IMG/VR virus record: IMGVR_UViG_3300025120_000620
Location: 1 to 22,344 of that record
Direction: 5' to 3' (one strand)
DNA length: 22,344 bases
From: a virus
The position numbers and the translations under genes were made by a program. Below, in pieces: positions 1,637 through 22,244 of this stretch. Every line of letters starts with the position of its first letter. The first letter of the stretch is position 1. The notes below the pieces were generated by a model. The model was given only the letters and a program-made list of their open reading frames with translations. It ran no database searches and was not told where the DNA came from.

Positions 1637-2361
1637 TGCCAAGAAAAGCAGCAAAGGGTTCACCAAGATATTACTTTCACCAAGGAACAGAAGACGCAAT
1701 CATAAGACACAATAAAGAAACTCGTCCACATATGAGAGAAAGAATTTATAATGAACACATTAGAGTTCCCTTTGAAAAGTTGGCAGAAAATATAATTCAT
1801 ACATTTAAGTTTTATTACTTTGATGTTCCAAGTACAGATGTTATGCACGAAGTTGTAAGTTTCTTATATATGAATATGCATAAGTTTACTGAAGGTAAAG
1901 GAAAAGCATTCTCATACTTTAGTATTGTTGCTAAGAACTATTTGATTCTACACAACAACAATAATTACAAGAAGATGAAACAAACTGATAGTGAGGAAGT
2001 TACTGATTACAAACGTAATCCAATCACCGAAGCAACTCGTGAAGATTTACTCACAGCAAAGAAAGAGTATCTTGATTTGTTTATTGAGTATTGGTCAAAC
2101 AACTTGACTACTGTTTTTAAACGTAAGCAAGATATGGATGTTGCTAATTCGGTATTGTATCTTATGGAACACAGAGAGAACATTGATAACTTCAATAAGA
2201 AAGCTCTATACATTTTAATCAGAGAAATGACAGGTTCCAATACACAACACATTACACGAGTAGTGAATGTGATGAAAAAACATCACGTTAATCTACAACA
2301 CAATTACCTAACGACTGGCTCAATCGAAACTAAGTTTACAGGCAGTTGGGATAATTTGTAA
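1636..2361 (+). CDS. gp55: Late transcription sigma factor, T4 gp55-like
   Basis: This is a 241-aa protein. Residues about 46-112 resemble sigma70 region 2 as found in T4-type late sigma factors: EKLAENIIHTFKFYYFD, then HEVVSFLYMNMHKF, then GKGKAFSYFSIVAKNYLI. The last stretch is the aromatic, -10-contacting helix. T4 gp55 is a minimal sigma lacking region 4; it directs host RNA polymerase to TATAAATA late promoters with gp33 and the sliding clamp. The C-terminal half (DLLTAKKEYLDLFIEYWSNN onward) is helical and ends in a basic stretch (VVNVMKKHHVNLQHN). Nothing resembles a region 4. An exact TATAAATA lies about 700 bp downstream at 3058, ahead of the structural genes, which supports the role. 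The start is fixed by the TAATG overlap with the preceding gene. The main alternative is another small sigma-like regulator. Confidence 0.75.
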   Translation: MPRKAAKGSPRYYFHQGTEDAIIRHNKETRPHMRERIYNEHIRVPFEKLAENIIHTFKFYYFDVPSTDVMHEVVSFLYMNMHKFTEGKGKAFSYFSIVAKNYLILHNNNNYKKMKQTDSEEVTDYKRNPITEATREDLLTAKKEYLDLFIEYWSNNLTTVFKRKQDMDVANSVLYLMEHRENIDNFNKKALYILIREMTGSNTQHITRVVNVMKKHHVNLQHNYLTTGSIETKFTGSWDNL

Positions 2362-2369
2362 AAAAAAGC

Positions 2370-2398
2370 TTGACATTGTTAGTAAAAATACATATATT
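2370..2398 (+). promoter_or_regulatory. Sigma70-type promoter for the 67-aa gene
   Basis: TTGACA (2370-2375) and TATATT (2393-2398) are separated by exactly 17 bases, a near-consensus housekeeping promoter just after the sigma gene. The -10 runs into TAGATTTG (2398-2405). That matches the TAnnTTTG -7 element known in Bacteroidota, with ATTG 19 bases upstream (2375-2378) as an imperfect -33 element. A second TAnnTTTG (TAAATTTG) occurs at 2433-2440. Either reading would put transcription start roughly 50-80 bases ahead of the gene at 2485. Confidence 0.55.
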
Positions 2399-2484
2399 AG
2401 ATTTGAATAATTAAGTTATATCAGTTTTGTTCTAAATTTGCAGTTTACCAATAAAGGTATACTAAAACATAAAAGGAACTAAAA

Positions 2485-2688
2485 ATGACAGAAATACTAA
2501 ATAGATACAACAACGAGGGAATATTCCCAACAGATGAAGAACTTCAAGTCATTGTAAATGAAGATGAAAACTACAATGAACCACTTGAAGTGGAATTGGA
2601 ACTCTTAAGATTGGCGGAGAATCCAAATCACCCGTATCATAATATGACTCTTCCTCGAGAGTTTACTATCGAAGACATCATAAACTAA
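2485..2688 (+). CDS. Small acidic protein of unknown function
   Basis: This 67-aa, strongly acidic protein has no signal peptide, membrane segment or cysteine. Residues 15-45 (FPTDEELQVIVNEDENYNEP and on) are helical and rich in Glu/Asp. The C-terminus contains PREFTIEDIIN. It has its own ribosome site (AAAGGA, about 8 bases before ATG), a near-consensus promoter upstream and a strong hairpin terminator just downstream, so it forms an independent one-gene unit between the sigma gene and the structural block. Small acidic proteins made from a host-type promoter in phages often bind host proteins, for example polymerase or nuclease inhibitors or DNA mimics. That is only a possibility here. I recognise no family. 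Confidence 0.7.
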   Translation: MTEILNRYNNEGIFPTDEELQVIVNEDENYNEPLEVELELLRLAENPNHPYHNMTLPREFTIEDIIN

Positions 2689-2693
2689 AACAA

Positions 2694-2723
2694 AAAAAGG
2701 GGAATATTTCTATTCCCCTTTTT
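2694..2723. terminator. Bidirectional intrinsic terminator
   Basis: A perfect 13-bp inverted repeat: arm AAAAAGGGGAATA at 2694-2706, loop TTTC at 2707-2710, arm TATTCCCCTTTTT at 2711-2723. The A run on one side and T run on the other give a U-tract in both directions. It lies between two convergent genes (2485-2688 + and 2744-2968 -), as expected for a shared terminator. Confidence 0.92.
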
Positions 2724-2743
2724 AATTCCACCTTTATTCTTTC

Positions 2744-2968
2744 TTATTTATTATTCAGCAATCCTAATATCACCAATAGTGATATAAATCCAGCGAATCC
2801 ACTTGTTGCAAATAAATTCACTAAACTAATCAGATTACCAATAATGTCCATACCGAAGAACCCGCCAACAAAAATCAATTGAACGAGAACCCCAAGACCA
2901 ATAACAGATAATAGCACATCTTTAAGACCTGCCACTACATCTATTATCATAGCCATAGTATTTTTCAT
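2744..2968 (-). CDS. Small two-helix hydrophobic membrane protein (holin-like size and topology)
   Basis: This is the only convincing minus-strand gene in the window. It is 74 aa, with a short charged N-terminus (MKNTMAMIIDVVAGLKD), a hydrophobic helix at about 16-38 (Gly-rich near 24-37), and a second long hydrophobic stretch at about 41-71 ending in LLNNK. The start is supported by a GGGGG/GGGGGA ribosome site about 7 bases before the ATG. It has its own terminator and is read opposite to all neighbouring genes, so it is separately controlled from the late operon. Length and topology are those of small phage holins or other membrane-perturbing or superinfection-exclusion proteins, but no sequence feature proves lysis function. 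No endolysin is visible in this window. Confidence 0.75.
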   Translation of the reverse strand: MKNTMAMIIDVVAGLKDVLLSVIGLGVLVQLIFVGGFFGMDIIGNLISLVNLFATSGFAGFISLLVILGLLNNK

Positions 2969-2986
2969 ATTCGTTTCCCCCTTTTA

Positions 2987-3109
2987 TTAATCTAAAAGAC
3001 TACAAATTCCATAGTCGTATAATAACTATATACCAATCTAACAAAAATTAAATGATATATAAATATATATCCCTATTTTTTAAGTTTTATCTATTTATTA
3101 TTAGATTAA
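2987..3109. repeat. Inverted repeat TTAATCTAA / TTAGATTAA flanking the divergent spacer
   Basis: TTAATCTAA at 2987-2995 is matched by its exact reverse complement TTAGATTAA at 3101-3109. The copies lie 18 and 24 bases from the two divergent start codons. A third partial copy, AATCTAA, is at 3035-3041. The placement would suit operator half-sites controlling both genes. The sites are short and AT-rich, so this is suggestive only. Confidence 0.35.
3058..3065 (+). promoter_or_regulatory. T4-type late promoter box TATAAATA
   Basis: This is an exact match to the T4 late-promoter -10 octamer, 68 bases before the start at 3134, at the head of the baseplate gene run. It sits inside an 18-base near-palindrome (3054-3071: arms GATATATA and TATATATC around a central AA). 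The gp55-like sigma encoded at 1636-2361 is the expected reader. The surrounding DNA is very AT-rich, so a chance match is possible, but position and context favour a real site. Confidence 0.6.
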
Positions 3110-3133
3110 AAACAAGCAAAAATAAGCAAAATT

Positions 3134-3523
3134 ATGTCAACAGATTACGAAATATTCAAAGGAAAAACACTCGGAGATGTGTTCAAAGACATCTATGATA
3201 ATTCCCATACCAATAAAAAACAATTAGAAGTATTGATGAAAGAGGTAGTGGGGTTTATTAAAGATGGTGATACTGCCGTGCAAATAATTCCTATGTTAAA
3301 GGAATACTTAGAAATCAATGTAAAGAACGATGAGCAACTCGTCAAACTAGCAACAATCGTTCAAAGAATTACAGCAGCTGAAGGTAGAGCAACAGCTGAT
3401 GGAGATGAGTTCGGATTATCCGAATCAGAAAAAGAACAATTAATGGACGCAATAGAAGAAAATGTTCAAGAGTTACAAAACAAGCAAGACGAGATTATTC
3501 AAGATATCAAACAGGAAAACTAA
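3134..3523 (+). CDS. Conserved-looking helical phage protein, first gene of the baseplate block
   Basis: This 129-aa protein is acidic and predicted all-helical, with no membrane segment. It contains KKQLEVLMKEVVGFIKDGD, then a helical stretch (AVQIIPMLKEYLEINVKNDEQLVKLATIVQRI), a linker rich in Ala/Gly/Asp, and a C-terminal charged coiled-coil-like tail (NVQELQNKQDEIIQDIKQEN). I see no good Shine-Dalgarno before the ATG; the leader is A-rich. Its TAA overlaps the ATG of the gp5-like hub gene (TAATG at 3521-3525), so the two are co-translated. It could be a small baseplate or assembly factor. A terminase-small-subunit role was considered because of the helical layout, but the location beside baseplate genes does not favour it. 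The family is not recognised. Confidence 0.7.
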   Translation: MSTDYEIFKGKTLGDVFKDIYDNSHTNKKQLEVLMKEVVGFIKDGDTAVQIIPMLKEYLEINVKNDEQLVKLATIVQRITAAEGRATADGDEFGLSESEKEQLMDAIEENVQELQNKQDEIIQDIKQEN

Positions 3524-5242: not shown

Positions 5243-5716
5243 ATGAAGAAAAATGACTTAGTAAAAATAATCGAATTAGTTGTCCGTAAAGAAGTTAAAA
5301 AGCAGATGACCGAGATATTTATTAACGAAGATAAAGAAATCAGCTTATCAGAAGTTATTTCTAAACCAAAACAAAAAGCTAAAAAAAGAAGAGTTAAAAA
5401 ACAATACTCAAAAAATTCAGCATTGAACGAAGTATTGAACAAAACCAATCCATTAGGTCAAACTGACGATTACCCATCATTGGGTGGTGGAGTATTAGGT
5501 TCAAACAATATGGCAGAAGTATTGGGTTATGGAAATTTAGGTGGAAAGCAAGATAAAGAAACAGCAAGAGAAATGGCAGCAGTAGACACAATTAAGAAAG
5601 CTGGAGTTAGTGTAGATTCAGTTCCAGAGGGTGTACAAGATGCTTTAACTCGTGATTACTCTGGATTAATGAAAGCAATTAACAAAAAGAAAAAAGGTGA
5701 GAACTTTAGACCATAA
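5243..5716 (+). CDS. Basic phage protein of unknown function in the baseplate block
   Basis: This 157-aa protein starts MKKNDLVKIIELVVRKEVKK, an amphipathic charged helix. A very basic patch follows at about 43-55 (KPKQKAKKRRVKKQYS), then a Gly/Leu/Asn-rich flexible region (SLGGGVLGSNNMAEVLGYGN), and a C-terminal helix ending in KKKKGENFRP. The translation start has a clear AGGAG 5 bases upstream of the ATG. Its stop overlaps the start of gp25 (TAATG, 5714-5718). The N-terminal helix plus basic linker suggests an assembly or scaffold-like adaptor or a nucleic-acid contact, but I recognise no family. The conserved position between hub and gp25 makes a virion-assembly role likely. Confidence 0.7.
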   Translation: MKKNDLVKIIELVVRKEVKKQMTEIFINEDKEISLSEVISKPKQKAKKRRVKKQYSKNSALNEVLNKTNPLGQTDDYPSLGGGVLGSNNMAEVLGYGNLGGKQDKETAREMAAVDTIKKAGVSVDSVPEGVQDALTRDYSGLMKAINKKKKGENFRP

Positions 5717-6123
5717 TGGCAAGTGTAAGAGAAATAGATAAAAATGATGATATGTATGTTGGAGTTAGATTTCCATTAGGTTACAGTCAAGAAGGTTTTT
5801 TGTTTAAGACAAAAACTATATTGGAACAAGCTAAAGCTAATCTAAGAAATCTACTATTAACATCAAAGGGTGAAAGAGTTATGCAACCTGAGTTTGGTTC
5901 AAGATTAACTGATGTATTATTTGAACAAGGGCCAGATGTTCAGAATCAAATAGATGAAGTTATTAGAGAAGCAACTTCATTTTGGTTACCATACATAAAC
6001 ATAAACGATATAGGTGTGGTTCAAAACGATAGTAATATCGTAGATGTATCAATAGACTTTTCAGTATCAGTAGACCCTGATTCTTTTGAAACACTAACAT
6101 TTAATTTTAATATTGGAGAATAA
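5716..6123 (+). CDS. gp25: Baseplate wedge protein gp25 (GPW/gp25 family)
   Basis: This 135-aa protein is the usual size for gp25. It has the family layout: N-terminal VGVRFPLGYSQEGFLF, a helix TILEQAKANLRNLLLTSKGE, the diagnostic GERVMQPEFGSRLTDVLFEQ, a helix QNQIDEVIREATSFWLPYI, and C-terminal beta strands VVDVSIDFSVSVD. In T4, gp25 binds gp6 and gp53 in the wedge core and helps start sheath polymerisation; related proteins are found in phage P2 (gpW) and type VI secretion (TssE). It is preceded by a coupled TAATG junction and followed two bases later by gp6, the same gp25-gp6 pairing seen in contractile tails. This is one of the safest calls in the window and implies a contractile-tail (myovirus) particle. 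Confidence 0.93.
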   Translation: MASVREIDKNDDMYVGVRFPLGYSQEGFLFKTKTILEQAKANLRNLLLTSKGERVMQPEFGSRLTDVLFEQGPDVQNQIDEVIREATSFWLPYININDIGVVQNDSNIVDVSIDFSVSVDPDSFETLTFNFNIGE

Positions 6124-6125
6124 GA

Positions 6126-8099
6126 ATGCCGAGGCAAGTAGACTACGGAACAAATAAAAAATTAGTAAAGAAAGAGGTAAATTATCTCGGTAGAGATTTC
6201 CGTGATATAAGACAAAATCTTATAGAATTTGCAAAGAGTTACTTCCCAACAACATACAATGATTTCAATGAAGCATCACCAGGAATGATGTTTGTTGAGA
6301 TGGCAGCATATGTTGGTGATGTGTTGAATTATTATGTAGATAATCAATTCAGAGAAACACTTTTACAACACGCAGAAGAAAGAAAAAATGTATTAGCAAT
6401 TGCTCAATCATATGGATATAAACCAACATTAGCAGCACCTTCAATAGTAGAACTTACGGCTCAAGTTGATGTTCCTGCTAAAAACTTAGGTAGTGGTAAT
6501 TTTAAAGCAGACTTAGATTATGCTGGTATCGTTAGTGCAAACTCAACCGTAATGTCAACAAACGGAACAGAATTTAGTTTAATGGATGATGTTAATTTTA
6601 AAACATCAAGTTCATTAGACCCAATGAAAGTAGAAATACTACAACCAGATTCAGGTAACATTCCAACAAATTATAGATTAACTAAAAAAGTTTTAGCTAA
6701 ATCTGGAACAAGAGAAACAGAAACATTTACATTTACAGGCGCTAAAAAGTTTGACAAGATAGTTTTATCGAATGAAAAGGTAACAGAGATTGTATCGGTA
6801 ACTGATAGTGAAAATAATACATACTATCAAGTTCCTTTCTTAGCACAAGATACAGTGTTTGAGTCAGAAGAGAATACAACACTAAATGACCCAGCGTTAT
6901 CACAATATCAAAATGATACACCTTACTTATTGAGGTTAATCAAAACAGCAAGAAGATTTACAACTTATGTTCGTGATGATAATAAAATGGAGTTAAGGTT
7001 CGGTAGTGGTATTAGTGCAGACGCAGATGAAGAATTAATACCAAATCCAGATAATGTTGGTTCATCATTAGGAACTGGCATTTCAAGGTTAGACGAATCG
7101 TTTGACCCAACAAATTTCTTAAAAACACAAACATTTGGATTAGCACCATCAAACACTACATTAACTATACAATATAATTATGGTGGTAGTGTTGAGGATA
7201 ACGTTCCATCAAATGCTATTAACAGATTTAATAGGAAGACTTACACAAATAGTACAGAAAATTTAAATAGTGATACACAAGATATTTCAAATGCAACATT
7301 AGTGATATTCAATGAATCACCAAGTTCAGGTGGAGCAAGTCAAGAAACACTAACAGAGATAAAAGAAAATGCTGCAGGATACTTTAATGCACAAAACAGA
7401 GCAGTAACAAGAGCAGACTACATAACAAGAGTTTATTCCTTACCACAGAAATATGGAAACATAGCAAAAGCTTATGTTGTTCAAGATGAACAATTAGAAC
7501 TAGAAGGACAATTGGAAGTTATCGATGGAGTAGCAAAGAAAGTTAATCCAACAACCATTCCTAATCCACTAGCACTAAATATGTACTTGTTAGGGTATAC
7601 AGGAAATAAAAAATTAACTCAAGTAAACAATGCAGTAAAACAAAATTTAAAATTATATCTTTCACAATATAGAGTATTAACAGATGCGATTAATCTTAAA
7701 GATGCTTATGTAATAAACATCGGTGTTAAGTTTAATATCATAACTCGTAGAGGATTTAATAAAAATGATGTATTGTTCAGAGCAATACAACAAGTCAAGA
7801 AATTCTTTGCAACAGAAAAATGGCAAATTAATCAACCAATTATATTGAGTGACTTAGCATATCAGATTTCATTAGTTGATGGAGTAGTTTCTATTGTTCC
7901 ACCAGAAACAAACAATCCACAAAAGAATTTAATTGTTATTGAAAACAAACATTTAACAACAGACAATTATAGTGGTAATGTTTACGATATAGATTCAGCA
8001 TCAAAAGATGGAATCATATATCCATCATTAGACCCAAGTATATTTGAACTGAAATTCCCTGATATAGATATCGAGGGAAGAGTATTGGGAGATAAATAA
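6126..8099 (+). CDS. gp6: Baseplate wedge protein gp6 (baseplate J-like)
   Basis: This is a 657-aa protein, close to T4 gp6 (660 aa). The N-terminus carries the gp6/baseplate-J signature: NYLGRDFRDIRQNLIEFAKS, FNEASPGMMFVEMAAYVGDV, then LNYYVDNQFRETLLQHAEER. These are helices that dimerise gp6 around the hub. The middle is beta-rich, with RFGSGISAD near 292. The C-terminal third has the J-like segment with RAVTRADYITRVYSLPQKYG (about 421-440) and a late region with VLTDAINLKDAYVINIGVKF. It starts two bases after gp25, with GGAG 8 bases before the ATG, and its stop overlaps the next start (TAATG at 8097-8101). In the particle it forms the inner ring of the baseplate with gp7, gp25 and gp53. 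Confidence 0.92.
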   Translation: MPRQVDYGTNKKLVKKEVNYLGRDFRDIRQNLIEFAKSYFPTTYNDFNEASPGMMFVEMAAYVGDVLNYYVDNQFRETLLQHAEERKNVLAIAQSYGYKPTLAAPSIVELTAQVDVPAKNLGSGNFKADLDYAGIVSANSTVMSTNGTEFSLMDDVNFKTSSSLDPMKVEILQPDSGNIPTNYRLTKKVLAKSGTRETETFTFTGAKKFDKIVLSNEKVTEIVSVTDSENNTYYQVPFLAQDTVFESEENTTLNDPALSQYQNDTPYLLRLIKTARRFTTYVRDDNKMELRFGSGISADADEELIPNPDNVGSSLGTGISRLDESFDPTNFLKTQTFGLAPSNTTLTIQYNYGGSVEDNVPSNAINRFNRKTYTNSTENLNSDTQDISNATLVIFNESPSSGGASQETLTEIKENAAGYFNAQNRAVTRADYITRVYSLPQKYGNIAKAYVVQDEQLELEGQLEVIDGVAKKVNPTTIPNPLALNMYLLGYTGNKKLTQVNNAVKQNLKLYLSQYRVLTDAINLKDAYVINIGVKFNIITRRGFNKNDVLFRAIQQVKKFFATEKWQINQPIILSDLAYQISLVDGVVSIVPPETNNPQKNLIVIENKHLTTDNYSGNVYDIDSASKDGIIYPSLDPSIFELKFPDIDIEGRVLGDK

Positions 8100-15772: not shown

Positions 15773-16816
15773 ATGTCAACATTTCAAATATTTGATAAAG
15801 AAAATGATGTAGTTGAAAATCAAAGAACAACTATCTCAAGTGGATTATGGACAGGTGGTTCAGGAACTTTAACCGCAGCATATACACAATCTACAAATGG
15901 AAATATTACAGGTTCCTTTTTAGATATCTATAACGAAGACCCAAATCTTTCAAGTTCAGCAGAAGTCCAATACGCAGTTGGATATGCACACTTTGACGGA
16001 AGTGGTTCAAGAGGTAACACAACTAAATTAACAACAGGTGGTAGACAATCAAAAGCATTGTATAGTCAATTCAGAAATGTATTGTTAGCACCAAACACAG
16101 ATAAGTTTGAATTTACATCTTCACCAACAGCATCAGGCGATAAAGACTTTTACTTTGTTTCGTTCCAAAGAGCAAGACAAAGAGAAAAGATTGACCCAGG
16201 AAATTGGGAATTACATTTAGCAGGAGCAATGCCAGCAGGTGATACACACGATAGTAAAATTAAATTAATTGATGATAGTGGAGCAGGAGCAAATGTTACC
16301 GTTAATCAAGGTGGTAGAGTATTTAATGTTGTTAGTGGTTCAGTAGCAGGTGGAGTTAATGTAACAGCAGCAGCTGAAACAGCATTCGGTGCTTATGGAT
16401 TATTTTATCCCGACTTAGGATTAATATTATTAAATGCTAAGATGGCTGAATTGAGTGGTGGTTTAGCAGCTAATCCAAGAAGTGCAGATGCATTTGACAA
16501 CAGACCACAAGCATTCTATAACTCAATTGAATCAGGTTCATACTTTGCAGCTCGTAGAGAAGAAGAAATTAGTTCAACGAATTACTTTGTTCGTGTTAAT
16601 AACAAGAGATTTAACTTTAGTTCTAATCCAACATTTGCAACAGGTTCGGATGGTTCTTTAACTCAAGCTACTTTCTTTAAAGACCCTAAAACTTTTATTA
16701 CACAAGTTGGTCTTTATAATAATGAGAATGAGTTATTGGCAATTGCTAAGTTATCTCAACCTTTACTAAAGTCATATTCAAGGGAAGCTATTATTAAAGT
16801 GAAACTTGATTTTTAG
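15773..16816 (+). CDS. Tail fibre/appendage structural protein A
   Basis: This 347-aa protein is Ser/Gly/Thr/Asn/Ala-rich with no signal peptide. Features include FRNVLLAPNTDKFEFTSSPT and DFYFVSFQRARQREKIDPGN early on, and a Gly/Val/Asn-rich middle. The C-terminus (FKDPKTFITQVGLYNNENEL; LAIAKLSQPLLKSYSREAII) matches the end of the next gene, which is therefore a partial paralogue. That C-terminal module (TxVGLYNxxNELLAxAKLxxP) is a compact beta region, perhaps an anchor to a shared partner. The start is set by AAGGAG overlapping the previous stop codon. Probably a component of tail fibres or baseplate appendages. Confidence 0.75.
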   Translation: MSTFQIFDKENDVVENQRTTISSGLWTGGSGTLTAAYTQSTNGNITGSFLDIYNEDPNLSSSAEVQYAVGYAHFDGSGSRGNTTKLTTGGRQSKALYSQFRNVLLAPNTDKFEFTSSPTASGDKDFYFVSFQRARQREKIDPGNWELHLAGAMPAGDTHDSKIKLIDDSGAGANVTVNQGGRVFNVVSGSVAGGVNVTAAAETAFGAYGLFYPDLGLILLNAKMAELSGGLAANPRSADAFDNRPQAFYNSIESGSYFAARREEEISSTNYFVRVNNKRFNFSSNPTFATGSDGSLTQATFFKDPKTFITQVGLYNNENELLAIAKLSQPLLKSYSREAIIKVKLDF

Positions 16817-16825
16817 GACAAAATA

Positions 16826-17809
16826 ATGTTCAAAAATCTTGAATTACAAGAATCAACAGTTAGACCTTTTAAAACTCATAAGAACTTTACATTTAGTAAT
16901 AATGATAGTGGAAGTGGAATATGGGGAATAAAAGCTCGTAGTGGTTCTTTATACAATTACATAAGCGCATCAGACGCAGTGACTGAAGTCGTATCGGGTT
17001 CAGTAACAACACGATATTTTTCATCACCAACTTGGCATATGTTAAATCAAACATTTTATGCTAATCACATAACAGCAAGTTATAATCCAGGACTTATAAG
17101 TAGAAATTTAAATACATCTGCTTCAATACTAAGTGTTGGTAGAGATTTATTTGGGGAAGAAATAAAACCGGGTAGTCTTGACTTATCGGTAACGATTGGT
17201 AGTGTAACTTTTGATATTAGAGATGATGGAGATGGTAATCTTTATGATAATGCACACTCTGCAAGTTTCTCAACATTTAAAACAAACAAATTTACAAGTG
17301 GTAGTACAACTACTACAAATGCAGTAGGTAGTGGTAGTGAAGTCGGTAATATAATGTATGGTCAAGGACTATTAGTCTTTACTGATACAGGTTCTTACGC
17401 TGATGCAGCAACATCACCATTTACTTTAAAGTATCAAGCAACTCATACAATATATGAATATGAGTACCTTGTAAAAGCAAAACCTTTTGAATTTAATACT
17501 TCAACAAATATCAGTTTAACACCTGATAGAAGTGGTAGTATTACAGTAAAAGAGGGTGCGGTTTCAATGTCTAACTTCTTCCCACCAAGTCACAATCCAA
17601 GTGGTCACGGAACAGGAAGTTATGCAACATTCTATAATGCAGCATCTGAGTCATTACCAATGGTAACTGGTTCAGAATTTAAACCATATGTGACAGATAT
17701 AGGTCTTTATAGTGAAGACAATGAACTATTAGCTCACGGAAAATTAGCAAAACCTATCAGATTAAGTGATGATATCGAGACGACTTTTGTAGTTCGTTTT
17801 GATGTATAA
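16826..17809 (+). CDS. Tail fibre/appendage structural protein B (shares C-terminus with A)
   Basis: This 327-aa, beta-rich protein has many Ser/Thr/Gly/Asn residues and no signal peptide or membrane segment. Its last ~45 residues (FKPYVTDIGLYSEDNELLAH, then GKLAKPIRLSDDIETTFVVR) line up with the C-terminus of the preceding protein: shared [TD]x[IV]GLYxxxNELLAxxKLxxP and a final VxFD/VKLDF. The N-terminal parts are different, so the pair share an attachment module but not an outer body. The N-terminus contains a Thr/Ser-rich SGSVTTRYFSSPTWHMLNQT stretch. This is a common arrangement for exchangeable fibre subunits. It is the last clearly virion gene before the secreted pair. Confidence 0.75.
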   Translation: MFKNLELQESTVRPFKTHKNFTFSNNDSGSGIWGIKARSGSLYNYISASDAVTEVVSGSVTTRYFSSPTWHMLNQTFYANHITASYNPGLISRNLNTSASILSVGRDLFGEEIKPGSLDLSVTIGSVTFDIRDDGDGNLYDNAHSASFSTFKTNKFTSGSTTTTNAVGSGSEVGNIMYGQGLLVFTDTGSYADAATSPFTLKYQATHTIYEYEYLVKAKPFEFNTSTNISLTPDRSGSITVKEGAVSMSNFFPPSHNPSGHGTGSYATFYNAASESLPMVTGSEFKPYVTDIGLYSEDNELLAHGKLAKPIRLSDDIETTFVVRFDV

Positions 17810-17821
17810 TCTTTGTAAACT

Positions 17822-17833
17822 TTATATTTATTA
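17822..17833 (+). promoter_or_regulatory. Recurrent AT motif TTATATTTATTA upstream of the secreted cargo gene
   Basis: Exact second copy of the 12-mer found at 15000-15011. It lies in the 51-base spacer ahead of the T9SS cargo gene at 17861, followed by a GGAG ribosome site at 17851-17854. If it is a promoter element, the cargo gene could have its own late start as well as read-through from the tail genes; no terminator is visible between them. Confidence 0.35.
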
Positions 17834-17860
17834 TTGAATTGAACCTTAACGGAGAACATA

Positions 17861-20824
17861 ATGTTTCGTTTTATGAAAAAGATGGTTATAACGACAGTTA
17901 TGTTTGGATTTGTCTTTGCACAAAGTCCAATCATAAGGGTAAAACAAATTGGTGAATGGAAAACACCAGAGTATTGGTGGAAAGCACAGGAGACTGTACA
18001 ATTACAGACTTTCTTAGCTGATGATATATCAACACCAGCTTTTAAGAATAATAATTTTGATTCTTGGAGAGATGACATTTTAGAAATAGAAGTCACTCTT
18101 GACGATGTAGGACAAGATATTACTACATTTAGATTTGATATTGCATTTGACAACGATTTAATCACTTGGATTGAAAATGATGGAACTAATCAAGAAACAT
18201 CAATCAATGCTTGGAGTCAAGGAAACTCACGAGTAATTGTGGGTTCACATATAGCAGATTGGACTGAAGGTGATGAAACATCAAATAATTCAACTGACTA
18301 TTCTTTTGAAGTAGTTCACTTTTCTAATGTTGGATACACAGACGCTATCCAAAGTAGTGGGAATGAAACTTCAGCACAGGATTCAGGCTATGATTGGTTA
18401 AGAGTTACTATGGTAAGTCACGGAGTTGATGCTAATAGTGATGGAACACCAGATTTTACATTTGGTAATGGAAACGGAAATCAAGCACAAGTATTAAAAT
18501 TACAATTTAGAATTAATGATGTAGTTGATAATTATCAACCACGTTCATTTAGAATACCTACACTTTATAGTGGTGGAACTGGATACTATACTTTCGTATC
18601 CGATGACTACCTATTAGATTATAAAGTTTACATTGACGGAAACTTTGATACCGCAGTAGACAATACAGGTAATGGTGGAGCAAGAGGAGATATTTCTCTA
18701 CATCCAAAACTTGTTGATGTTGAAGGCTTCGGTAGATACATTGGTGAATGGGTTGATGTAAATGGAGATGGAGTAAAAGATTCAGGTGATGACTTTGAAC
18801 AAAAAACTTATCCTTATTGGAAAGTTGTATTTGAGTTAGATGAAAATAATCCTGATACAGACGGAAACGGAACCGCTACACCATTCCCTACTTGGTATAA
18901 TATAGAAGATGTTGCTGATGATTCAAACACAGCAGACGAAGATTTATCTGATGATGTTATTGGAGATGGTAGTGGAACATATTACTATCTGAAAATGACC
19001 GACACAAACGGAGTAACAACATTAGCAGACCAAGCATTACCTGATAAAGGATTCTTAGGAGTATCATATTTTGATTACACCTATACGGATAAAAATGGAT
19101 ATTATAATATTCAATTACCAAGAAATAATACTTATCGTGTTTCTATCTGGCCACCAGACGCAGCAGATGATATTGGTCAACATACACAATTAGAATTGGA
19201 TAGAGGAGCGATTACAAACATTAATGACGCAATCGCAGCATTTAATTTCCAATCAAACAAATTTGAAAATTCTAATGATATTAAAGTAGATTCACCAAGT
19301 GCTTACTTAATTGGTGATGTAGACGGAGATGATGTATTCCAATTAAATGACGCATACTTTATATGGGCATATGTAAGTGGAGTATTTTCAACATCATATA
19401 CTCACATTAATGGAAACTCATATCAACAATGGTCAAGTATAGATAATTTAAAATCAAATGGAAGTGCACAAACTCTTAATTATTATCAAGCACTTAGAGG
19501 TGGTGATACAAAACAAAGAAGAGAGTTTACATTATTTTTAGATGACGACTTAGCACAAGAAACAACATCACTAACAAAAGACGCTGGTGGAGTTGCTTGG
19601 TTTAATCCTTTAATGGATGATGTCGTAACAGGTATGGATACTTTACAAGTAAGTATTGGAGCAGGAACATCAACCTTTGATGACCCGGACATTACTACTG
19701 ATGGAGATGTAAATCCAGATTACACTTATGATGAGGTCGCAGTTTACTTTACAGGTGATATGAATTTATCAGGAACAAAAGTTCAAGAAAGTGGTGGTGA
19801 TGGATATCAAGACGCATATGCAGGAACAACATATTATCGTTGGGCAACACACACGGTTCAAAACGGAAGTTCAGGAGATAACTCTTGGAATCAGAATTGT
19901 GTAAACGCATCTTGTGATGACGCACCAAGTGCTTGGACATACACAAATACAAATGGTGAATATGATGGAGCAAGTAAAATTATGGCTACAAATTCAACAC
20001 CCGATGTAAGTTTATCATTACCAGACGATGGAAGTGTTAAAGTTCAAATGGGTAACCAAGTTGTAGTTCCTTTGACAATTACACCTAATTTAGATTTGGT
20101 AACAGGAGAACCTACTAAGATAGCAGGTTTTGAATTTGAGGTTAGATTTGATACTAATCAATTACAATTTATTGACGCTCAAACAGGACTTTTACCAGGA
20201 CCTTGGATGACTTACTTAAATGAAAGTGAGATTGATGACGAGGGATATAAAACAATTTCATTCGGAGCATTAGAAAATTCACCAAACAATGCACCAGAGG
20301 ACTATTATTTGACTGAAGAGTTAGTTGGACTACAATTAGTATTCAATTCACAACTTAATGAAAATAATAATCAAGAGTGGACAGAAGCTGACTTACAATT
20401 TGTAGGAAAAGCTAACGCTGGTAATCCAGCGGGTGATGATTTATTTATGGAAAGACAAAGTGGAAAAATAAACATATGGAATAAGTTTTGGGCATTTGGT
20501 GGTGGACAACCATCAGAAGATGAGATGACTTATGTTTATCCAAATCCATATAAAGATAGTGAACATAGTTCAATTAACTTCCAATTCTATATGGAACAAT
20601 CAGGTAATGTGATGATTAGTATATACAACGCTAATGGTCAAAAGGTTGGAACTTTATTAGATGAAGTTGTTAATGACGGAATGCACACATATACTTTCTC
20701 AGACTTGCCAGATGCTTTCGGTGATGGATATGGTGGATATCAAGAATTAGATTCTGGTATTTATCTATTCGTAATGGAAACAGAAAACAAAATTAAGTCT
20801 AAGAAATTTACAATAATTAAATAA
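17861..20824 (+). CDS. Secreted multidomain protein with T9SS C-terminal sorting domain, cohesin/dockerin-like segments
   Basis: This is a 987-aa protein. Residues 1-20 are a Sec signal peptide (basic MFRFMKKM, hydrophobic VITTVMFGFVF) with predicted cut FA|Q, leaving Gln21 as N-terminus. Beta-rich domains follow. Residues about 73-215 look like a cohesin-type sandwich (ILEIEVTLDDVGQDITTFRF). Asp/Asn-rich calcium-loop-like segments occur at 190-199 and 299-313 (DVNGDGVKDSGDDFE). A dockerin-like loop is at 485-507 (GDVDGDDVFQLNDAYFIWAY). A clearer cohesin-type domain is at about 725-830 (KIAGFEFEVRFDTNQLQFID). Residues about 890-987 are a type A T9SS sorting domain: YVYPNPYKDS, ISIYNANGQKVGTLLDEV, SGIYLFVMET and a KKFTIIK end. 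Only two Cys (680, 685) are present. Such proteins cross the outer membrane by T9SS and attach to the surface. It lies directly after tail genes and just before a PorV-like gene. A start at internal Met5 is possible, but the GGAG site favours 17861. Confidence 0.88.
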   Translation: MFRFMKKMVITTVMFGFVFAQSPIIRVKQIGEWKTPEYWWKAQETVQLQTFLADDISTPAFKNNNFDSWRDDILEIEVTLDDVGQDITTFRFDIAFDNDLITWIENDGTNQETSINAWSQGNSRVIVGSHIADWTEGDETSNNSTDYSFEVVHFSNVGYTDAIQSSGNETSAQDSGYDWLRVTMVSHGVDANSDGTPDFTFGNGNGNQAQVLKLQFRINDVVDNYQPRSFRIPTLYSGGTGYYTFVSDDYLLDYKVYIDGNFDTAVDNTGNGGARGDISLHPKLVDVEGFGRYIGEWVDVNGDGVKDSGDDFEQKTYPYWKVVFELDENNPDTDGNGTATPFPTWYNIEDVADDSNTADEDLSDDVIGDGSGTYYYLKMTDTNGVTTLADQALPDKGFLGVSYFDYTYTDKNGYYNIQLPRNNTYRVSIWPPDAADDIGQHTQLELDRGAITNINDAIAAFNFQSNKFENSNDIKVDSPSAYLIGDVDGDDVFQLNDAYFIWAYVSGVFSTSYTHINGNSYQQWSSIDNLKSNGSAQTLNYYQALRGGDTKQRREFTLFLDDDLAQETTSLTKDAGGVAWFNPLMDDVVTGMDTLQVSIGAGTSTFDDPDITTDGDVNPDYTYDEVAVYFTGDMNLSGTKVQESGGDGYQDAYAGTTYYRWATHTVQNGSSGDNSWNQNCVNASCDDAPSAWTYTNTNGEYDGASKIMATNSTPDVSLSLPDDGSVKVQMGNQVVVPLTITPNLDLVTGEPTKIAGFEFEVRFDTNQLQFIDAQTGLLPGPWMTYLNESEIDDEGYKTISFGALENSPNNAPEDYYLTEELVGLQLVFNSQLNENNNQEWTEADLQFVGKANAGNPAGDDLFMERQSGKINIWNKFWAFGGGQPSEDEMTYVYPNPYKDSEHSSINFQFYMEQSGNVMISIYNANGQKVGTLLDEVVNDGMHTYTFSDLPDAFGDGYGGYQELDSGIYLFVMETENKIKSKKFTIIK

Positions 20825-20832
20825 GAGGGACA

Positions 20833-21690
20833 ATGATGAAAAAATTATTAAGTTTATTAGTATTAACAGGAACATTATTTGCACAAGCAAATGATATCTT
20901 TACACTTAATCCAAGTGTAAATAGTGCCGGTATGGGTAATGTCGGTATAGCACACGCAGATGTAAGAAATGTATTTCACAATCCAGCCTTTGCAGGACTA
21001 AAAAAGACACATTACGAAATATCACACGTAAAATGGTTACCAAACTTATCAGATGATATGGGATATCAAAGTATGTTACACACTTCAGATATGGGTTGGT
21101 CAGGTGAAATATTTTACTTTGATTACGGAACACAAACAGAAGCTAATTCAGGCGGAATCATCATAGGTGATTTTGAATCAGCATCATTTAGAATGAGTGG
21201 TGGTTATGGATTTGGATTCAACGATTGGTTAGTCGGAGCAAGATTAAATTTCTATCATCATAATTTTGTAGACGATATTGATATCGGTATGAACTATGGA
21301 TTTGATATCGGTGCTTACAAAGAGTTCGGTAATACATCAGTTGGTATCGTATTAAAAGATGTCGGTGGTGATACAGAAATATTAGAACAAACACTTAATT
21401 TACCTATGTCAATAGGTGTTGGTGTTGGACAAAAATTTGGAGACTTTACATTAGCATCTGATGTTAAGGTATTTGAGGATTATAATTCGATTGGTATTGG
21501 TGGAGAATATTCACTTGGTGTCGCAAGTTTAAAAGCAGGATACTATACTGAATCAGAATTTGATGTTGATTACTTTACAATAGGTGGTGGCATTAACGCA
21601 GGTATCGTAGACTTATCATTAGCATATTACTACAATACAGATAGTTTTCATAACGAAACTTTAATGATTTCATTTGGATTTAACTTCTAA
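20833..21690 (+). CDS. porV: PorV/PorQ-family outer-membrane beta-barrel protein
   Basis: This 285-aa protein has a signal peptide MMKKLLSLLVLTGTLFA with predicted cut before Gln18. It then shows the PorV/PorQ (UPF0164-like) opening: NPSVNSAGMGNVGIAHADV and a HNPAFAGL box, matching the family's SAGMGxxGxAxAD...NPA signature. About twelve alternating hydrophobic strands follow, with the barrel closing on an aromatic end (LMISFGFNF). In T9SS, PorV is the outer-membrane shuttle that takes cargo from the SprA/Sov translocon to the attachment complex; PorQ acts in that complex. This protein is shorter than typical PorV (roughly 380 aa), nearer to PorQ-type or minimal members. It begins 8 bases after the cargo stop (AGAGGG ribosome site), so the two are almost certainly one unit. 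PorV versus PorQ is undecided; the family is clear. Confidence 0.82.
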   Translation: MMKKLLSLLVLTGTLFAQANDIFTLNPSVNSAGMGNVGIAHADVRNVFHNPAFAGLKKTHYEISHVKWLPNLSDDMGYQSMLHTSDMGWSGEIFYFDYGTQTEANSGGIIIGDFESASFRMSGGYGFGFNDWLVGARLNFYHHNFVDDIDIGMNYGFDIGAYKEFGNTSVGIVLKDVGGDTEILEQTLNLPMSIGVGVGQKFGDFTLASDVKVFEDYNSIGIGGEYSLGVASLKAGYYTESEFDVDYFTIGGGINAGIVDLSLAYYYNTDSFHNETLMISFGFNF

Positions 21691-21830: not shown

Positions 21831-22244
21831 ATGGCAAAACAAGTAGACGCAGAACAATTAGTAGATAATTTACAAAACGCAAAGTTTGGATTATCAATAC
21901 AAAACATAGTAGCTATCGTTACGGTATTATCATCACTTATAGCAGGTTGGTATACTTTTACAGGTAGAATAGATTCATTAGAAGAAGTGGTTCAAGGATT
22001 TGCAGAAGCATCAGATATTGAATTAGTCGGACAGAAGTTAGATACTTTTGAAAAAGATATTGATTACCTTAAAGAAAGAATCGATTCTTTTGAAGGTGTT
22101 GATTTATCAGGTATCACAGGTGATATCATTAAGTTAGAAGCTGAAATTAAAGATGTTAAAAGAAATGCTAACGCAGCTCATAAACACATAGATAAACACG
22201 AAGTGGATTTTCACGGAGACCCATTAGCAAAATTTAAAAAATAA
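21831..22244 (+). CDS. Membrane-anchored coiled-coil protein
   Basis: This is a 137-aa protein with a short soluble N-terminus (MAKQVDAEQLVDNLQNAKFG), one transmembrane helix at about 22-44 (LSIQNIVAIVTVLSSLIAGW), and a long charged, heptad-like helix from about 46 to 120 (RIDSLEEVVQGF; KLDTFEKDIDYLKERIDSFE; IIKLEAEIKDVKRNANAAHK). The end is His/Lys-rich (KHIDKHEVDFHGDP). This should be a bitopic inner-membrane protein with a coiled coil on one side. AGGA lies about 8 bases before the ATG, and its TAA overlaps the ferredoxin ATG (TAATG). A spanin or lysis accessory role is conceivable from topology, but there is no supporting motif. Family not recognised. Confidence 0.75.
   Translation: MAKQVDAEQLVDNLQNAKFGLSIQNIVAIVTVLSSLIAGWYTFTGRIDSLEEVVQGFAEASDIELVGQKLDTFEKDIDYLKERIDSFEGVDLSGITGDIIKLEAEIKDVKRNANAAHKHIDKHEVDFHGDPLAKFKK

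Follow-up and report, generated by a model that had tools for sequence, protein, structure and literature searches.

The question raised by this locus is why a T4-like phage should encode, immediately behind its tail genes, a large protein that carries the address of the host T9SS, and by what route such a protein could reach the surface of the infected cell. The window analysed here covers positions 1 to 22,344 of the IMG/VR virus record IMGVR_UViG_3300025120_000620; its features that bear on the question are collected in Table 1.

Table 1. Features of the window on which the analysis rests; the limits of the cargo open reading frame are exact, from its ATG to the last position of its stop codon.
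Feature	Position	Strand	Remarks
gp25-like baseplate wedge protein	5716..6123	+	PF04965, 48.1 bits
gp6-like baseplate wedge protein	6126..8099	+	phrog_219, E 1.7e-18
g16, tail gene	15773..16816	+	C-terminal motif in common with g17
g17, tail gene	16826..17809	+	directly upstream of the cargo gene in 65/65 contigs
T9SS cargo protein	17861..20824	+	987 aa; signal peptide, long passenger, cohesin module, type A sorting domain
Sec signal peptide of cargo	17861..17923	+	by-eye reading; cleavage before invariant Gln21 (Q-rule)
Dockerin-like Ca-loop motif GDVDGDDxxQLNDxYF	19313..19360	+	residues 485-500; invariant in alignment
Cohesin module of cargo	19997..20470	+	residues ~713-870; PF00963; Foldseek top matches are cohesins
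T9SS type A sorting domain of cargo	20534..20824	+	residues 892-987; TIGR04183; Lys982 invariant
PorV/PorQ-family outer-membrane barrel	20833..21690	+	285 aa; putative shuttle that carries the cargo
137-aa coiled-coil protein with a single TM segment at its N terminus	21831..22244	+	conserved next gene after the barrel in long contigs

Analysis of the cargo sequence points to an export signal at each end. The N-terminal signal peptide, read by eye from the sequence as MKKMVITTVMFGFVFA before QSP with predicted cleavage at FVFA/Q, looks clear, and the glutamine at +1 (Q21) is invariant in two alignments of relatives (23 rows and 9 rows); glutamine at +1 after signal peptide cleavage is the 'Q-rule' of Bacteroidetes (PMC10653852). 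At the C terminus, residues 892-985 match TIGR04183 with 34.2 bits (cut-off 23; E 1.9e-8) and also PF18962 with 27.4 bits (cut-off 27). Type A sorting domains possess a near-invariant lysine close to the C terminus (PMC10994853), with which Lys982, invariant in 9 rows spanning both clades, was equated by eye.

The initial annotation had placed cohesin-like and dockerin-like modules in the protein, of which the former is borne out and the latter is not. The cohesin module matches PF00963 with 25.8 bits (gathering score 24.1), and Foldseek with the C-terminal third of an AlphaFold model retrieves mostly cohesins (best E 1.9e-10); this third (residues ~713-870 plus the tail) is the sole confident part of a model with a mean pLDDT of 40.8 overall, and it alone was used, the full-length fold being of low confidence. 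A Ca-loop-like motif, GDVDGDDxxQLND, is invariant in the alignment at residues 485-497, and a second motif, GDxNxxG, is found at residues 632-638, but the cargo has no Pfam HMM match to the dockerin, a duplicated Ca-binding F-hand domain; because the motifs are isolated, 'dockerin-like' applies at the level of motifs only. A sequence search of the PDB with the cargo gave no match. Cellular homologues of the passenger were sought with two patterns in cellular genome contigs and with a profile built from the phage cargo alone in 297 genomes of one cellular phylum, both with limited sensitivity: the patterns found none, and the profile matched cellular proteins at the sorting domain alone. This phylum is that of the Flavobacteriaceae MAG NAT163, one contig of which (L054/L171; PACV01000021.1) is the sole match among cellular genomes and is itself a phage contig.

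The cargo gene starts 51 bp after g17 in a T4-like late structural region, with gp25 and gp6-like wedge genes farther upstream (PF04965, phrog_219, phrog_261). The gp6-like protein of the window matches those of Microcystis phage Mel-JY01 at 48% and Flavobacterium phage immuto at 39%, and g16 and g17 match one another at 33-34% over ~85 aa. A scan based on the cargo yielded 15 contigs, or 45 with an alignment as the query. An independent scan from g17 yielded 325 relatives, of which 80 were kept; 15 of these end within 115 bp of g17, and the cargo follows g17 in all of the 65 that have at least 120 bp left past the tail gene. Since every continuing contig possesses it, as does a second record that matches the window (L002), the cargo is a core gene of the lineage. 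Its identity falls to ~50% (tblastn) in a diverged clade (L129, L137, L147, L150, L152), and the TIGR04183 cut-off is passed in 10/10 long related records that reach the sorting domain. There is next to no probability that positions 17810-21690 are a host fragment misassembled onto phage sequence: the junction is common to 65/65 independent contigs, the match of L002 to the window stays at 100% across the two junctions, the GC content is unchanged, and phage-type genes resume past the barrel with the TM/coiled-coil gene and continue in L002. A chimera is rejected on this recurrence and synteny. The central proposal of the initial annotation, that a T4-like phage encodes a T9SS type A cargo directly behind tail genes, is upheld by a sorting-domain match over its cut-off and by recurrence in independent phage contigs; neither a failure of that match nor a host fragment was found.

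The adjoining gene, which was absent from the initial annotation, makes the locus more than a cargo alone. It starts 8 bp downstream of the cargo gene and encodes a barrel in which, as in the cargo, the Q-rule glutamine is invariant in the alignments. The barrel of the window scores 90.2 bits against NF033709 (cut-off 90), a family matched by the barrels of 13/13 relatives; among the long records that reach the barrel, 10/10 match, 7 over the cut-off and 3 below it. The equivalog models for PorV (NF033710, 40.5 bits against a cut-off of 250) and PorQ (NF033711, 54.5 bits against 220) are not reached: the phage barrel is a member of the PorV/PorQ family, but is not assignable by score to PorV or PorQ proper. 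Since PorQ is part of the attachment complex and not a carrier, this lack of assignment counts against a carrier role for the barrel. A barrel profile that includes the diverged clade has Flavobacterium johnsoniae PorV (6h3i_F, E 6.2e-13) as its sole significant match in the PDB; a profile from close relatives alone gave no meaningful PDB match. Foldseek with the AlphaFold model of the barrel (pLDDT 69) ranks the PorV chains of the T9SS translocon 1 and 2 among 350,542 chains (8gl6_F and 6h3i_F), with FadL-type barrels after them, and a search of BFVD returned generic barrels only. In the phylum of NAT163, the barrel profile matches at E 1e-15 or better in 152/396 genomes, and the cellular matches tested by NCBIfam are PorQ, PorV or general members of the PorV family. 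Thus the barrel resembles PorV (8gl6, 6h3i; PMC10994853) in its 14-strand-like fold, with PorV as its top structural and profile match, and differs from it in being phage-encoded, in falling below the PorV equivalog cut-off, in its length (~285 aa versus 345-402, with a stretch of ~90 residues of F. johnsoniae PorV unmatched), and in its descent, the phage barrels forming, in a tree, one deep clade (99/96) apart from the sampled PorV, PorQ and other family members.

The barrel follows the cargo in 20/20 contigs that are long enough, with at most one small gene between them in long contigs, and both genes are under purifying selection (dN/dS ~0.1-0.45 in 12 pairs). Where a gene intervenes in L003 (12957-13451) and L005 (12970-13368), it encodes a small secreted charged protein (132-164 aa) whose N-terminal part resembles a second secreted protein encoded farther downstream; a small secreted protein occupies the same place in L008. 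Distances among barrels hardly co-vary with distances among cargos in the close clade (r 0.21, or 0.24 with the sorting domain alone), which argues against strict pair specificity; it is as if the barrel were exchanged separately from the cargo, perhaps to suit the SprA of the host. The logic of the pairing may exist in cells too, since secreted proteins of the sorting-domain type directly precede PorV-family genes at two or three loci in the phylum of NAT163 (L183:147-2346, L184:1405-3741, L178:1129-3654). Full-text literature searches that paired phage with either PorV or T9SS sorting domains turned up no phage reported to encode a member of the PorV family, nor did the literature searched contain a phage cargo-carrier pair; neither the cargo nor the barrel of the window had a relative in a collection of annotated phages.

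The pair appears to head a conserved outer-membrane cassette, which in L002 and relatives runs in the order TM/coiled-coil protein, ferredoxin, lipoprotein, barrel-like secreted protein (with the N-terminal motif YxYxDPC...PC), second secreted protein, spanin-like coiled coil and PAP2 phosphatase. A glutamine follows the predicted cleavage site in most of the secreted members, in keeping with the Q-rule. The run from the lipoprotein to the spanin-like protein is kept in L002 (14676-17737), L008, L027, L051, L163, L165 and L160. The 4Fe-4S ferredoxin gene, situated between the TM protein and the lipoprotein (L002:14384-14671 and relatives), is missing in some relatives, such as L096. The lipoprotein bears a weak resemblance to CsgG (PF03783, 14.8 bits, below the cut-off of 20.8), and with no profile match in the PDB its identity as CsgG is not established; the spanin-like coiled-coil TM protein matches Rz-spanin weakly (phrog_739, E 1.6e-4).

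We consider it moderately probable that cargo and barrel constitute a cargo-carrier pair, in which a carrier made by the phage exports the cargo through the host T9SS for display on the infected cell. In cellular systems, type A cargo binds the loops of PorV inside SprA and exits the lateral gate together with PorV (PMC10994853), and type B cargo is served by carriers of its own, encoded at linked genes, that also determine where it ends up (PMC12618676). The phage proteins would act late in infection, as the position of their genes suggests: export of the cargo by Sec, with removal of the signal peptide to expose the glutamine; entry of its type A sorting domain into the host translocon (SprA/Sov); insertion of the phage-made PorV/PorQ-family barrel into the outer membrane, where it would dock at SprA's lateral gate; and uptake of the sorting domain by the barrel, which would draw the cargo out and leave the large cohesin-bearing passenger on the outside of the infected cell. 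The locus would be most simply explained by a dedicated or supplementary carrier. With such a carrier the phage would no longer depend on how much PorV the host has or on the specificity of that PorV, and the carrier could keep the cargo anchored, as dedicated PorP/SprF carriers do with type B cargo. By this means the phage probably gives the infected cell a new surface, and the benefit, which is the weakest step of the proposal, is most likely a remodelling of that surface that results in superinfection exclusion or altered adhesion; the binding of glycans or of progeny virions, put forward in the initial annotation alongside these two, may be further uses. Tentatively, one may go further and suppose that the lineage evolved its own branch of T9SS carriers along with a dedicated cargo and reprogrammes the host translocon so that it takes up a viral surface protein and exposes it on the cell, perhaps displacing host cargo as well.

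The cargo might instead depend on the host's PorV, the phage barrel serving to occupy or block the host translocon, so that export of host type A proteins (adhesins, receptors) stops and other phages are excluded. The absence of co-variation between barrel and cargo would agree with such a role, as would the shortness of the barrel and the stretch of F. johnsoniae PorV that it leaves unmatched, and because phage immuto has a cargo with a sorting domain without any PorV, phage cargo presumably can use the carrier of the host. A blocker would, however, stop the phage's own cargo too, and cargo and barrel are adjacent in all contigs; on balance a block is unlikely. It is likewise rather unlikely that cargo, barrel, TM protein, lipoprotein, second barrel and spanin-like protein together make up a module for outer-membrane disruption or lysis. 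The CsgG-like lipoprotein, the barrel-like secreted protein and the weak Rz-spanin match all point in that direction, and the CsgGF proteins of other marine phages have been proposed to act in lysis (PMC9004378); yet lysis has no need of a 987-aa protein with a T9SS address, and the resemblance to CsgG was not borne out when solved structures were searched with a profile.

Position alone might suggest that the cargo is a component of the virion, such as a tail fibre or decoration protein, since it occupies the place of tail fibre or spike genes in relatives: behind the g17 homologue of immuto there is an annotated tail fibre, followed by tail spikes, and Mel-JY01 has large genes of unassigned function at that place. 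Virion proteins assembled in the cytoplasm, however, need no Sec signal peptide, Q-rule glutamine or T9SS sorting domain, and the cohesin and sorting-domain gene of immuto is located far from its tail fibres, which makes a structural role very improbable. The cargo-carrier reading accounts for the locus most simply.

Cultured relatives bear on this reading. The cassette of Flavobacterium phage vB_FspM_immuto (MW353176.1, 11598-15868) has the same order as that of the window lineage: a 243-aa protein with cohesin and TIGR04183 domains (45-47 bits), then a small TM protein in the matching place, a lipoprotein homologue (38%) and a homologue of the second barrel (33% over 75 aa, E 2e-6). Unlike that of the window, the immuto cassette is not behind tail genes, and its cargo is small, corresponding to the C-terminal third only; this small cargo can be aligned to the final third of the cargo in the window (hhalign E 4.7e-5, with a probability of only 68%; BLASTP E 0.002), and homology of immuto_14 to the N-terminal part is not supported. 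No PorV-family gene was found in the immuto genome. Microcystis phage Mel-JY01, which has a cyanobacterial host, possesses neither a cohesin and sorting-domain protein nor a PorV-family gene. The Flavobacterium phage has a sorting-domain protein and the cyanobacterial phage has none, a distribution that agrees, to the extent that a handful of cases can tell, with whether the host possesses a T9SS.

The statement in the initial annotation that no phage strategy of this kind is well described overlooked precedents. The main report of phage T9SS cargo that was found, on Cryophage (Nat Commun 2020, PMC7468147), describes, as in the window, phage proteins with T9SS type A sorting domains, and its authors proposed use of the host T9SS and effects on superinfection; the crAss-BACON lineage is another such report (PMC6949934). 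The cohesin and TIGR04183 gene of immuto was likewise missed, having gone unremarked. The three Cryophage genes (endoglucanase, GH39, PA14) are accessory and variable, and no carrier was reported for them, whereas the single gene of the window lineage belongs to the core, keeps its position and has a partner of the PorV family. A parallel to the pair is found in F. johnsoniae, where a type B cargo gene adjoins the gene of its own carrier, PorP/SprF, which also fixes the final place of the cargo (PMC12618676); that system joins a type B sorting domain to PorP/SprF, and the window joins a type A sorting domain to the PorV/PorQ family. The CsgGF 'curli' genes of pelagimyophages and of methylophage Melnitz (PMC7029224, PMC9004378) are also phage-borne parts of outer-membrane secretion, but they belong to type VIII and supply pore parts without cargo and without a T9SS.

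Here a phage appears to bring along its cargo and also an interchangeable component of the secretion machinery of the host. The genes by which phages change the cell surface usually encode enzymes or small exclusion proteins. If the proposal is true, a virus takes over a machine for protein secretion by providing one of its exchangeable subunits, and cargo and putative carrier belong to the core of a phage lineage that is widespread in the sea; the pair would then open a way to study how the phages of T9SS bacteria govern the surface of the cells they infect. As a natural and compact pair, the two genes make the carrier specificity of the T9SS testable; immuto, growing on Flavobacterium, is a cultured relative with a simpler, carrier-free version that can be deleted.

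The contig binned into NAT163 might appear to identify the host as a member of the Flavobacteriaceae. Shine-Dalgarno motifs precede 5/7 genes of this contig and 62-80% of genes in the window lineage, as compared with 15% in sampled contigs of the NAT163 MAG and 5% in Flavobacterium phage immuto. Bacteroidetes are generally without such motifs (PMC6847099). Since its Shine-Dalgarno usage differs from that of the rest of the MAG, the binning of the contig is doubtful and it is probably mis-binned, and the contig is not taken to identify the host. Because the motif is frequent in the lineage and rare in the Bacteroidetes comparisons, the more likely host is a Shine-Dalgarno-using lineage that possesses a T9SS. 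One guess is SAR406/Marinimicrobia.

Scans for regulatory signals found no enrichment of T4-type late promoters (TATAAATA), and those for sigma-70 promoters and terminators found nothing telling. At the beginning of the window, an open-ended reading frame (1-609) resembles Druantia DruA below threshold (PF14236, 26.2 bits; cut-off 27) and also resembles phrog_19197. The only likely gene on the minus strand of the window (2744-2968), in a region of negative GC skew (2001-3500), is a 74-aa reading frame rich in hydrophobic segments, possibly encoding a small membrane protein. Among the relatives, a 50-kb contig (G300) carries a phage tmRNA with the tag GTQFNYAYA (L164:1953-2298), and five tRNA genes are present in a related contig of 54 kb (L161).
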